Assembly: GCF_003368325.1 (NCBI RefSeq)
Contig: NZ_CP031467.1
Coordinates: forward strand, 744,001 to 808,000
From: Paraburkholderia caffeinilytica
GTDB taxonomy: Bacteria; Pseudomonadota; Gammaproteobacteria; Burkholderiales; Burkholderiaceae
Length of the DNA: 64,000 nucleotides
Reading direction: 5' to 3'
The translations under genes and the position numbers were made by a program. Of the stretch, positions 28,845-37,889 are shown one piece after another. The notes below the pieces were generated by a model. That model did no database searches. It was not told where the DNA came from and worked only from the letters and a program-made list of their open reading frames with translations. Positions within the stretch are counted from its first letter, which is position 1, and each line of letters opens with the position of its first letter.

Positions 28845-28983
28845 AAAACGCTGCGCCGCATCATTCCCGGCAGCCCTATCACAATAAGAATAGTGCGTGG
28901 CTGACCGGCGTTATCTCCGACATCTGACTTTTTCAAGACGGGTTGCCAAGCAACGCCCGGGCGGTGTATCGTGTGCGCTGCTA

Positions 28984-29083
28984 ACGCGGGGGTCCTGCGT
29001 GGCACGGAGGTTGGAGGTCCGTGTTGCGTGGGTGAGAAATACCCTTTGAACCTGATCTGGATAATGCCAGCGCAGGGAAGCGT
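28984..29083 (+). ncRNA. TPP (thi-box) riboswitch
   Basis: About 100 nt upstream of thiC. The conserved cores are present: GTGAGAAATACCC, GAACCTGATCTGGATAATGC and CAGCGCAGGGAAGCG. ACGC at the 5' end pairs with GCGT at the 3' end to close P1. The P3 side arm is long, with CACGGA and TCCGTG pairing inside it. Binding of thiamine pyrophosphate should reduce thiC expression; the platform lies in 29084-29185, which has no clear terminator, so control of translation is plausible. Confidence 0.95.
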
Positions 29084-29167
29084 ACGGATTTCGCACCTGG
29101 TCTACCGTTTCATCTCTCGCGAATCCGACAACTTCCGTCTCGTCTCCTGCTTAGCGGCCCCACATAG

Positions 29168-31117
<1,950 letters not shown>

Positions 31118-34555: not shown

Positions 34556-34815
34556 AATATAATTCACGCTCCGTGGACACCTGCCCCGCCGGGCGTGTAA
34601 TTCCGTATTTATCGCCCCAATGTCATCGTAATTTTTCTCACATCAGCGTGAGAATTGCTCGTTTTGCAGCGGCTTTGACTGCGTCTACGATGGCGACTAT
34701 CGGACGCCCCTTATCCCCCGAATCTTGCCGTTTCATTCCAGCCTGAAACGTTTCGCGCGATCGCGCTGCTACGATGCATGGGCGTCCCGACTCAACCGCG
34801 CGTGGCGCCACGACA

Positions 34816-35742
34816 ATGAATGCCAAAAGCCTGCTGCAATTGCTGATCCTCGCCGCCCTGTGGGGCGCCTCGTTTCTGTTTATCCGCGTCGGCGTGACCG
34901 ACTTCGGCGTCGCGCCACTGATGGCGTTGCGCGTCGGCATCGGCGCGGCCTTTCTCGCTGTCGTCCTGATCGCACGGCGGCCGCTGCGCCAGTCCGCGGC
35001 GATCCTGCGCACGCGCGCCTTTCCGCTGCTGGTGGTGGGCATTCTGAATTCGGCGGCGCCGTTCTGCCTGTTCGCCTATGCCGAGCTGACGCTGTCGGCG
35101 GGCGTGACGTCCGTGATCAATGCGACCACGCCGCTGTGGGGCGGGCTCGTCGGCTTCCTGTGGCTGCGCGACCGTCTGAGCGCGCTGCGCACGCTTGGTC
35201 TGGTGATCGGCTTTCTCGGCGTCCTGATGCTGGTGTGGGATCAGATCGCCGCGCCGAACGGTTCGGCCGCCACACCGCTGACCACCGCGCTCGCGGCGGC
35301 CGCCGCACTCGGCGCCACACTGCTTTACGGCGTCGCCGCCAATTACACGAAGCGCCACCTGACCGGCGTCGATGCATTGACTGTTGCGACCGGCACGATG
35401 ACCGGCGCGACCATCGTCCTGCTGCCGCTCGCCGTGATCTACTGGCCGGCCGCGCCGATCTCGCTGCACGCATGGGCCGCGGTCATCGCGCTGGGCATCG
35501 CGTGTACCGGCGTCGCTTACATGCTGTTCTTCCATCTGATCGCGGTGGCCGGGCCGGCACGCGCGATTACGGTGACCTTCGTGATTCCGATCTTCGGCAT
35601 TCTATGGGGTGCGCTGTTTCTCGGCGAAACCGTGTCGCCGGGCATGCTGGAAGGCTGTGGCGTGATTCTCGTCGGTACCGCGCTTGCCACGGGCGTGGTC
35701 AAGCGCCTGCCGTGGGTCGGGCCGCGCCGCGCCGACACCTGA
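34816..35742 (+). CDS. EamA-family (DMT) exporter
   Basis: A 308-residue ten-helix drug/metabolite transporter with two EamA repeats; the first opens LLILAALWGASFLFIRVGV and the second contains AWAAVIALGIACTGVAYMLF. The ATG at 34816 was chosen to place helix 1 right after a short N-terminus. Unknown substrate, no operon partner. Confidence 0.85.
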   Translation: MNAKSLLQLLILAALWGASFLFIRVGVTDFGVAPLMALRVGIGAAFLAVVLIARRPLRQSAAILRTRAFPLLVVGILNSAAPFCLFAYAELTLSAGVTSVINATTPLWGGLVGFLWLRDRLSALRTLGLVIGFLGVLMLVWDQIAAPNGSAATPLTTALAAAAALGATLLYGVAANYTKRHLTGVDALTVATGTMTGATIVLLPLAVIYWPAAPISLHAWAAVIALGIACTGVAYMLFFHLIAVAGPARAITVTFVIPIFGILWGALFLGETVSPGMLEGCGVILVGTALATGVVKRLPWVGPRRADT

Positions 35743-35904
35743 AAGCCGCCTCGCGCGATACGTTCGGCGCGATCCGCTCCTCGCCCAGGCGAAAGCCGCG
35801 CCGACACCGAAACACAGCGTTCGCGCGATGTCTCCAACATCGCCGGTTGTCCGCCTTGCACTGTTCGTCGCGTCAACAGCCTCTTAGCCCATTCCTCGCC
35901 GCCA

Positions 35905-35937
35905 AAAAAATAGCCCGCACTCCGTTGGAGTGCGGGC
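35905..35937 (-). terminator. strong intrinsic terminator (minus strand) with no obvious gene
   Basis: An 11-bp perfect stem, 3-base loop and a T7 run on the minus strand. It could also serve the 51-residue ORF at 36328-36483 if the RNA between is its 3' untranslated region. Confidence 0.85.
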
Positions 35938-36120
35938 GAAACCGTCGCCCTACGAGGATAGGCGACGGGGCCACCGAGGCCGCGCGCCATGCGCGCCGGC
36001 CATCATCGGGCTAAGCACCGGTTCGTTCGCCGGTGCTGAAAGGGTCTGGAAATCGCCGCTCGGACAAGCGTCGCAAGCTCACGCCGGATGTTACGAATCC
36101 GGCCCCATGAGCCTTTAAAA
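35905..36120 (-). ncRNA. candidate structured non-coding RNA with orphan terminator
   Basis: Read on the minus strand, five hairpins follow one another over about 200 nt: GCCGGAT/ATCCGGC (36083-36103), GCACCGG/CCGGTGC (36016-36037), a GC-rich palindrome GGCC-GCGCGC (35979-36002), CCGTCGCC/GGCGACGG (35943-35970), and the terminator GCCCGCACTCC-AAC-GGAGTGCGGGC followed by TATTTTTTT (ending about 35905). No protein gene ends there: the nearest minus-strand ORF stops at 36328. It does not resemble 6S, tmRNA, RNase P or SRP RNA as I know them. The 5' end near 36120 is a guess. Confidence 0.5.
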
Positions 36121-36327
36121 GCAGCTTGCGTGCCAGTTATGAAGACCCGCAAGAAATAGTTCGCAAATCATTGATTTTTATTACATTTTTTTGCGAAGAA
36201 AGGGGGTATGCAGGGTCCGGCGAAGGAGTATCGCGAGTTACGTCACCGGGGTAACGTCACGTTACATGCGGCCGCACAGGGAGACGGCCGCGCGGACTTG
36301 CTTCATGCGTTTGAAGCAAGCCGGCCA

Positions 36328-36483
36328 TCAACGCACCGGCCATTTCGCACGTTGTGCAGCAGTAGACCGGACCCGCAATTCCGTTGACCGCCGCGTCTCG
36401 CGCCGCTCCAGCGCCGCGCCGCAGACAAGCGCCAGGACGAGCAAGCTCGCCGCCCACATCCAGTAAGGAATCACGTCGAACAT
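36328..36483 (-). CDS. candidate 51-residue single-pass membrane protein
   Basis: MFDVIPYWMWAASLLVLALV continues CGAAL, one membrane helix of about 20 residues, followed by a basic cytosolic tail rich in Arg (ERRETRRSTELRVRS). GGGGGA lies about 7 bases upstream of the ATG at 36483. The bamC terminator lies upstream, so it would have its own promoter in 36484-36598. No homolog is recognised, and the small size keeps confidence low. Confidence 0.45.
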   Translation of the reverse strand: MFDVIPYWMWAASLLVLALVCGAALERRETRRSTELRVRSTAAQRAKWPVR

Positions 36484-36598: not shown

Positions 36599-36632
36599 TA
36601 AAAAAACCCGCCCGGTTTGCCTTCCGGGCGGG
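36599..36632 (-). terminator. bamC intrinsic terminator
   Basis: CCCGCCCGG and CCGGGCGGG (9 bp, 8-base loop) followed on the minus strand by a T-run of at least six, 36 bases after the bamC stop. Confidence 0.88.
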
Positions 36633-36668: not shown

Positions 36669-37889
36669 TCAGCGCAACTGGTCGACCATCAGACCCATGA
36701 TCTGCTTGGCCTGCGGGCTCTGATCGATGGTTCCCTTGTCGTCGACCACGGCCACGCGGGTCTGATCAGGCGTCACCGCACGCACGTTCACGAGATACTG
36801 CTTGGCGACCTTTTCCTTCTTGCCGTGGAACACCTGGCTCCAGAAGCCCTGCTCCGCCGACGTCAGATCCTTCGGATCGACGTAGCGCACGAAGTACAGA
36901 CCGCGGCTCGCATCGCGATCGTCGACAGTGAAGTTGCTACGGTCGAGCGCGAGGCCCACGCGCAGCCACGCACGGTCATACGGCTCGCTGAGCGTCAGCT
37001 CGGTGGACGAGAACTGTGCCGCCGTGCTGTTCGCCGCGTCATCCGGCATGGGCGGTTGCGCCGACAGCGCGACGTTTTGCGCCGCTGTCGCCGCAGCCGC
37101 CGATTTCGCACCTGCCGTAGCCGCGTTCGGCGCCGTTTGCGCTCCCGCCGGCGAGAGTTCGGCGCTTTGCGTCGTACGCGAATCGGCCAGCGCCAGCGCC
37201 GCCATCAGCCGCTTCAGGTATTCCTGTTCGAGACCCGGATCGTTCGGCTTGGCCTCCCACTTGGTCGAGTCGCTGTTCGTGCCGCTGATCGCCTCGCGCA
37301 TGCCCTTCTGGCTGATGAATACGTAGGTGCCGCCGTTCGGCGCCGCTTCGAGACGCGTGCGGTACTTGTTGCGCACGGAGCTCACATAGCTGTTGCCCAT
37401 GGCCTTTGAGAGCGTGTCGCGGATCAGGCCTTCGTTGATCTGGGCGCGCGTTTCGTTCCAGTCCGTTTCCATCACGCCCTTGTCGCGCTGATCGACCACC
37501 AGCAGGAAACCCTGTTCCTGCCAGAAACGGCGAATTTGCGCCCAGGCCTGGTCGGGCGCCTTGTTGTCGATTACAAGCCAGCTTTCCGTTCCGTCGCGCT
37601 GGATGTGCATGCCGTTCACCGGCGGCACCACCGTCAGGGTGTTGGCGGCCGGTGCTTGCGCCTGAACCTGCTTAAGCGTGGACAGCGAGGTTTCGCCGCC
37701 TTGCGGGGGCAACGAACGCTGATCGGACGTCTCATCGATCATGTTCGGCGGTACGGCAAGTGACACTTGCTTCGATTTCGAGTCGCTTTTGTAGTCGATT
37801 TTGGTCGGCGACGACGTACCGCAGCCGGCGACCAGACCGCCTGCCATCAGCATTACTGCAAACCGCTTGGTAAGACGAAGATCAGTCAT
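36669..37889 (-). CDS. bamC: outer-membrane assembly lipoprotein BamC
   Basis: A 406-residue lipoprotein (lipobox LVAGC, Cys23) with a long unstructured N-terminal segment (residues about 25-95) that in E. coli binds BamD. Two helix-grip domains follow (about 100-240 and 290-400), separated by an Ala/Thr/Gln-rich linker. SYVSSVRNKYRTRLE and RVGLALDRSNFTVDDRD fall in the two domains. It is part of the beta-barrel assembly machine. The gene is flanked by its own terminator. dapA, its usual neighbour in enterobacteria, is not adjacent. Confidence 0.87.
   Translation of the reverse strand: MTDLRLTKRFAVMLMAGGLVAGCGTSSPTKIDYKSDSKSKQVSLAVPPNMIDETSDQRSLPPQGGETSLSTLKQVQAQAPAANTLTVVPPVNGMHIQRDGTESWLVIDNKAPDQAWAQIRRFWQEQGFLLVVDQRDKGVMETDWNETRAQINEGLIRDTLSKAMGNSYVSSVRNKYRTRLEAAPNGGTYVFISQKGMREAISGTNSDSTKWEAKPNDPGLEQEYLKRLMAALALADSRTTQSAELSPAGAQTAPNAATAGAKSAAAATAAQNVALSAQPPMPDDAANSTAAQFSSTELTLSEPYDRAWLRVGLALDRSNFTVDDRDASRGLYFVRYVDPKDLTSAEQGFWSQVFHGKKEKVAKQYLVNVRAVTPDQTRVAVVDDKGTIDQSPQAKQIMGLMVDQLR

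Follow-up and report, generated by a model that had tools for sequence, protein, structure and literature searches.

A conserved structured small RNA beside bamC in Paraburkholderia caffeinilytica, with a putative sigma-54 promoter

The DNA between bamC and an EamA gene in Paraburkholderia caffeinilytica raises the question of whether its minus strand encodes a small RNA gene or the structured end of a neighbouring message. The locus lies in a window of 64,000 nucleotides, which is the whole stretch of DNA analysed here. A preliminary description proposed a new structured small RNA or, alternatively, that the small ORF at 36328-36483 has a structured 3' UTR. Judged from the sequence and its homologues, the candidate is real: it is a conserved small RNA gene, predicted to be read leftward from about 36109 to 35904. 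Table 1 summarizes the features of the locus.

Table 1. Features of the RNA and of its upstream region (window coordinates)
Feature	Position	Strand	Remark
Predicted primary transcript of the bamC-adjacent sRNA	35904..36109	-	about 206 nt
Hairpin P2, GCACCGGC...GCCGGTGC	36014..36037	-	two-sided changes in 6 of 8 pairs (25-sequence Paraburkholderia-type alignment, without shuffle control)
Hairpin P3, GC-rich, variable in sequence	35978..36001	-	two-sided changes in 7 of 7 modelled pairs
Unpaired linker UCGGUGGCC ahead of the core hairpin	35969..35977	-	mean identity 0.87
Core hairpin P4, CCGUCGCC-UAUCCUCGUA-GGGCGACGG	35942..35968	-	99.7% of cells paired; two-sided changes in 2 of 9 pairs
P4 loop UAUCCUCGUA, anti-Shine-Dalgarno-like	35951..35960	-	exact in 100 of 114 loci
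Intrinsic terminator P5 and U tail	35904..35937	-	two-sided changes in 7 of 11 pairs
Putative sigma-54 -24/-12 element TGGCACGCAAGCTGC	36121..36135	-	motif score
IHF-type site AATCAATGATTTG	36164..36176	-	41 nt upstream of the -24 element
Putative enhancer	36237..36265	-	palindrome GTAACGTGACGTTAC at 36265-36251 plus extra GTAAC at 36241-36237

Fold, covariation and extent of the RNA

The minus strand of 35905-36120 folds with an energy of -108.8 kcal/mol, compared with -88.2 (standard deviation 4.7) for its shuffles, none of 200 being as good (z = -4.4). The intrinsic terminator described earlier, with an 11-bp stem and a T7 tail, was found at 35937-35913, where the stem is followed by UA and seven U. 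Five consecutive hairpins had been reported; the last four have comparative support, that is, the terminator and P2, P3 and P4 among the four other stems in which compensatory changes were to count as support, while the 5'-most hairpin of the window showed no covariation support in the alignments.

Covariation, which had been proposed as a check, was strong. The alignment consists of 67 of 108 clustered sequences, hand-picked, and eight loci were excluded from its input by name, three of which (L102, L105 and L114) pass the filter. RNAalifold placed 27 pairs in P3, P4 and P5, and 98.0% of the cells of these fixed pairs are paired. Two-sided changes that preserve pairing occur in 16 of the 27 pairs and in 136 cells, compared with 8.4 pairs and 41.5 cells in shuffles, none of 500 being as high; the covariation score is 0.263 against 0.149 when shuffled. 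Relatedness can inflate these covariation figures, and when the structure is slid along the alignment, a control that retains relatedness, pairing falls to 35-45% of cells. The support for P4 consists of sequence conservation and of almost complete pairing; its stem varies little and only the few pairs given in Table 1 covary. In the Burkholderia-type alignment, two helices of the 5' domain covary as well (5 of 9 and 4 of 6 pairs, without a shuffle control).

The 3' part of the RNA is made up of the anti-Shine-Dalgarno-like hairpin and the terminator. Identity of the P4 loop is inflated in the filtered-set alignments by a loop filter, of which the count in Table 1 is free, as its 114 loci were fetched by similarity; three of the 14 exceptions (L076, L080, L082) appear to be false hits. 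The other loops have identities of 0.60 (P3) and 0.41 (P5), and the first U of the P4 loop pairs weakly with G. The 5' ends are complementary to the core, through GGGGCC in the Paraburkholderia type or GGAGGAUGGCG in the Burkholderia type. The idea of an intramolecular lid, in which the 5' end would pair with the core, was dropped because the duplexes were energetically no more favourable than with shuffled 5' ends (median z 0.5 and 0.0).

The probable start of the transcript is set by the putative sigma-54 promoter at 36135-36121 and was placed 12 nt past the -12 base, within 2 nt on either side, i.e. at about 36109. The predicted transcripts of the homologues have a median length of 210 nt and range from 123 to 263 nt (111 loci). 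The Pfam neighbours are BamC at 36669-37889 (minus strand), EamA at 34774-35742 (plus strand) and a lactate permease. It was borne out that no protein gene ends at the terminator: EamA, ending at 35742, is on the opposite strand, and 219 nt separate the end of the small ORF from the predicted RNA start. The bamC terminator, given as 36599 earlier, is likewise visible in the sequence at 36600-36632, although the terminator scan did not list it.

Promoter, enhancer and activator candidates

The preliminary description missed the promoter of this locus. A conserved sigma-54-type element lies directly upstream of the RNA, followed further upstream by an IHF-type site and an enhancer-like array of GTTAC and GTAAC words (Table 1). 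The pattern TGGCACG-N4-YTGC is matched at 14 or 15 of its 15 positions in 102 of 140 distinct loci, compared with 0.6% of shuffled regions; the 140 loci were obtained from 194 by removing 13 that had no loop pattern or too little flank, and then the duplicates. Among the 110 loci selected for having a -24/-12 word with enough flank, an IHF-type site lies 35-50 nt upstream in 52 (0.02 expected from shuffles) and GTTAC-N0-14-GTAAC is present in 96 (0.16 expected). From these motifs we strongly infer that the RNA is transcribed by sigma-54 RNA polymerase.

The combination of enhancer and promoter occurs once in the genome of the window, at this locus, as does a reversed control pattern. In 144 genomes of the genus it was found 88 times, of which 54 adjoin the RNA (one per genome) and 34 lie elsewhere in 26 genomes. 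Since these genomes contain a total of 54 matches to the reversed control, the 34 are no more than chance, whereas 54 at one place are not. Of the 78 genomes that carry the RNA, 54 have the exact pattern and 24 do not. A conserved GG-N10-GC element at the RNA start, as in the class of sigma-54-dependent small RNAs, is present, but not in some Caballeronia-type loci, where the RNA is kept and a good -24/-12 element is absent. From these loci and the 24 genomes it follows that control is not uniform. Four such Caballeronia-type loci, L133, L151, L160 and L164, share a stretch with GCTTATAGAAAT that may be a replacement sigma-70 promoter.

The window's genome has 20 strong Sigma54_activat matches, among which the activator was sought; none could be tied to the enhancer, and the Pfam domains of 10 of the 20 do not settle the matter. 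One candidate, at G000:C2:3682867, has several GTTAC/GTAAC words upstream, but it was dropped because its 20-kb region contains 22 such words compared with 39 expected. The enhancer arm resembles both the CbrB half-sites and the GcsR site, which is given as TGTAACG-N4-CGTTCCG in the available part of PMC4894688.

Distribution and synteny

By DNA comparison, 82 of the 144 genus genomes and 122 of the 299 family genomes have the element, counts that include chance-level matches. A covariance model built from the 67 sequences gave, at E 0.001, 86 of 144 and 131 of 299, respectively. At least 54 bits are reached in 78 of the 144 genus genomes, the window's own included, where the RNA is a single copy (112.3 bits; the next best match has 22.9). 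As 58 of the 144 have no match, the RNA is dispensable. In the family, seven genera reach at least 38 bits, and the matches of 28-36 bits in further genera were treated as noise. Among the matches listed, from a search whose pattern required the core, the named contigs belong to Burkholderia, Paraburkholderia, Caballeronia, Trinickia and, in one case, Pararobbsia. The non-pathogenic Paraburkholderia xenovorans LB400 is a carrier of the RNA core (L210).

In 300 genomes of the order there were four strong matches (94-114 bits), all from the same family, and four others at 29-35 bits. Among the weak matches outside the family, L264 is an RF02278 copy; at L261 and L263 both strands give a match, as bidirectional terminators do. 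L262 (1501-1586, minus strand; 33.7 bits), from another family of the order, has a UAUCCUCG stretch beside a strong terminator and is possibly a distant relative.

BamC is encoded upstream on the same strand at 162 of 174 loci. Of the other 12, L145 (Pararobbsia) has 2.3 kb of upstream sequence without bamC, and for the remaining 11 the upstream sequence is shorter than 1 kb. Some species are shared between the two locus sets. In 28 genomes without a strong match, 27 bamC loci showed no RNA, the covariance model scoring at most 26.4 bits compared with 112.3 for the window's locus. Within 1.1 kb after bamC, 25 of the 27 have neither a -24/-12 word nor a loop word. The remaining two, without the rest of the locus, are L313, with one -24/-12-like word 148 nt past bamC, and L330, with one loop-like word four bases past it. 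These RNA-less loci lack a fitting promoter, and so the RNA and its promoter tend to come and go together. At L308, where the RNA is absent, a GTAAC-GTTAC-GTAAC enhancer array lies 375-403 nt past bamC, apparently a remnant of recent loss.

Proposed function, alternatives and known systems

We consider it probable that the locus is a stand-alone small RNA gene of the predicted length whose product is controlled by sigma-54, acts in trans, probably with the help of Hfq, and blocks ribosome-binding sites with its loop. That the RNA is conserved and structured and ends at its own terminator is supported by the comparative evidence. According to the motifs, sigma-54 RNA polymerase would start from the element in Table 1; its activator would be an enhancer-binding protein that occupies the GTTAC/GTAAC sites, about 140 nt before the start, and IHF would bend the intervening DNA. 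The RNA would fold into its consecutive hairpins, as the covariation supports, and end at the terminator; the UAUCCUCGUA loop on its GC-rich stem may then pair, probably assisted by Hfq bound to the U tail, with Shine-Dalgarno sequences of the GAGGA type in target mRNAs, so that translation of the targets would be blocked while the sigma-54 signal is on. Hfq binding, loop pairing and translational repression are suggested by two parallels: the double-hairpin RNAs of B. cenocepacia, in which CU-rich loops are predicted to mask ribosome-binding sites (available text of PMC5688073), and S17 of Bordetella. Activity may reside in the 3' double hairpin, perhaps following processing like that of S17. 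If real, the RNA would link transcriptional sensing to post-transcriptional repression. More tentatively, it could be the chief product of a single dedicated enhancer-binding pathway, with nutrient state as the probable signal, and serve as a broad anti-Shine-Dalgarno brake on translation, a Burkholderia counterpart of CrcZ or Qrr with a double-hairpin RNA as its basis; we regard this extension as possible but doubtful. In the parts available of PMC5552954 and PMC5979394, biofilm and nitrogen-related functions of these bacteria are under sigma-54 control.

Readings that tie the locus to a coding sequence fared worst. The small ORF at 36328-36483 (minus strand) has 51 codons (MFDVIPYWMWAASLLVLALVCG...), with a membrane-like stretch and no Pfam family; it is matched beside the RNA at 34 of the loci L001-L054, and in L088 it has the ribosome site AAGGAG. 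It lies upstream of the RNA on the same strand in many Paraburkholderia loci, as a message with a structured 3' UTR should. Nevertheless, the alternative fails because the conserved promoter and enhancer separate the ORF from the RNA and because the ORF is missing where the RNA is kept: no match was found at the 15 loci L040-L054, which are from another genus, or at the Caballeronia- and Trinickia-named loci. The message of bamC would be no better an origin, having its own terminator in the sequence, and we give hardly any credence to a 3' UTR of either gene. Only slightly less improbable is that the RNA serves as the message of a very short peptide, or that it has both functions. S17 of Bordetella has a putative 32-residue ORF in the available part of PMC11722255, and a 23-residue frame is common to L001, L002 and L006, three close relatives among eight transcripts; the other five differ in their longest frame, and indel lengths within the 5' half are not confined to multiples of three.

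The two remaining readings keep the small RNA and change its partner. CrcZ and CrcY of Pseudomonas carry several A-rich AAYAAYAA motifs, which we take to be the Crc/Hfq site. The RNA could, like CrcZ, be a sigma-54-driven decoy that binds a protein such as Hfq, CsrA or another regulator instead of mRNAs. However, AAYAAYAA occurs in just one of 111 predicted transcripts and GGA twice in the RNA of the window, and a protein decoy would not readily explain the conserved CU-rich loop. The promoter layout, with sigma-54, IHF and GTTAC/GTAAC half-sites, does resemble that of crcZ/crcY as given in the available part of PMC6296734, and we regard a decoy as unlikely, though the least so of the alternatives. 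A sponge that pairs with other small RNAs through its loop and linker would account for the two conserved unpaired stretches; since the loop is itself anti-Shine-Dalgarno-like, whereas a sponge for CU-rich double-hairpin RNAs would presumably display GGAGG, this is improbable.

The preferred reading, a trans-acting small RNA under sigma-54, leads to the question of whether its family is already known. Rfam, also proposed earlier as a check, gave no family at its cut-off either at the locus, with the whole window scanned, or in 20 homologous loci; because of this and of the strong covariation, the reading as a new small RNA holds. GlmY/GlmZ and Qrr are sigma-54-controlled small RNAs, and neither has an Rfam match at the locus. 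Elsewhere in the window, an ordinary TPP riboswitch lies at 28978-29096 (plus strand), upstream of an ORF at 29174. In the titles and abstract starts of the best-ranked papers, no sigma-54-dependent small RNA of Burkholderia was found. By title, none of the papers matching Burkholderia, bamC and small RNAs concerned the locus; this search covered main texts, few of them from subscription journals, so that an unnamed RNA-seq listing may exist. Word searches of the text available gave 'bamC' 0 times in PMC10117139, PMC5688073, PMC3521395, PMC5719362 and PMC6321483 and 'RpoN' 0 times in PMC10987360, PMC4603805 and PMC6321483; that of PMC4035088 was limited to neighbouring-gene words. The RNA may already be among the 41 B. 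cenocepacia transcripts of PMC5688073, which are mostly in its supplements. One of these names, ncS11 (208 nt, 3 kb from ncS63, which adjoins hemP, in the available parts of PMC5688073 and PMC6321483), is unlikely because, judged by a motif, the 16-17 kb surrounding the RNA contain no HemP-like frame in two genomes of the Burkholderia type. The locus offers a candidate sigma-54-dependent small RNA whose promoter, enhancer and pairing loop are precisely delimited and which also occurs in harmless species used in the laboratory; it would be a well-supported new Rfam family.

When compared to known systems, the promoter side resembles that of CrcZ/CrcY, which in the available part of PMC6296734 combine sigma-54, IHF and a CbrB enhancer; the GTTAC/GTAAC half-sites are the core of the CbrB subsites. 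The RNA locus keeps GTTAC and GTAAC in another arrangement than the CbrB-type half-sites TGTTAC/GTAACA, no CbrB was identified, and the same source calls CbrAB exclusive to pseudomonads. With S17 of Bordetella, a transcript of about 190 nt in the available part of PMC11722255 that is reported to repress one gene directly, the RNA shares the size class of about 200 nt and a 3' double hairpin, which in S17 has conserved pairing sites. S17 differs in having a sigma-A-type promoter, in adjoining coq7 and in its demonstrated processing. Among Rfam families, the last two hairpins score best with RF02837 (anti-hemB, Burkholderia RNA 7, ncS04; 31.6 bits compared with a cut-off of 49.5) and RF02278 (Betaproteobacteria toxic small RNA, the double-hairpin RNAs ncS03, ncS05, ncS27 and ncS62 of B. 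cenocepacia; 24.4 compared with 50), and by score the RNA belongs to neither. Anti-hemB also has two 3' hairpins with UCCUC in the first, but its stem sequences differ. RF02278 had 0 matches at any cut-off in the 20 homologous loci, and a copy of it lies elsewhere in the window's genome (L255 1531-1594, plus strand; G000:C2 near 2137014; 81.9 bits). With RF02278 the RNA shares an unpaired stretch, a UCCUC-loop hairpin and a terminator hairpin, the latter two forming its 3' double hairpin. Unlike RF02278, where the linker is CU-rich, it has the linker given in Table 1, an extra 5' domain of more than 100 nt and a putative sigma-54 promoter, and we rate it as a new small RNA family on the double-hairpin architecture.
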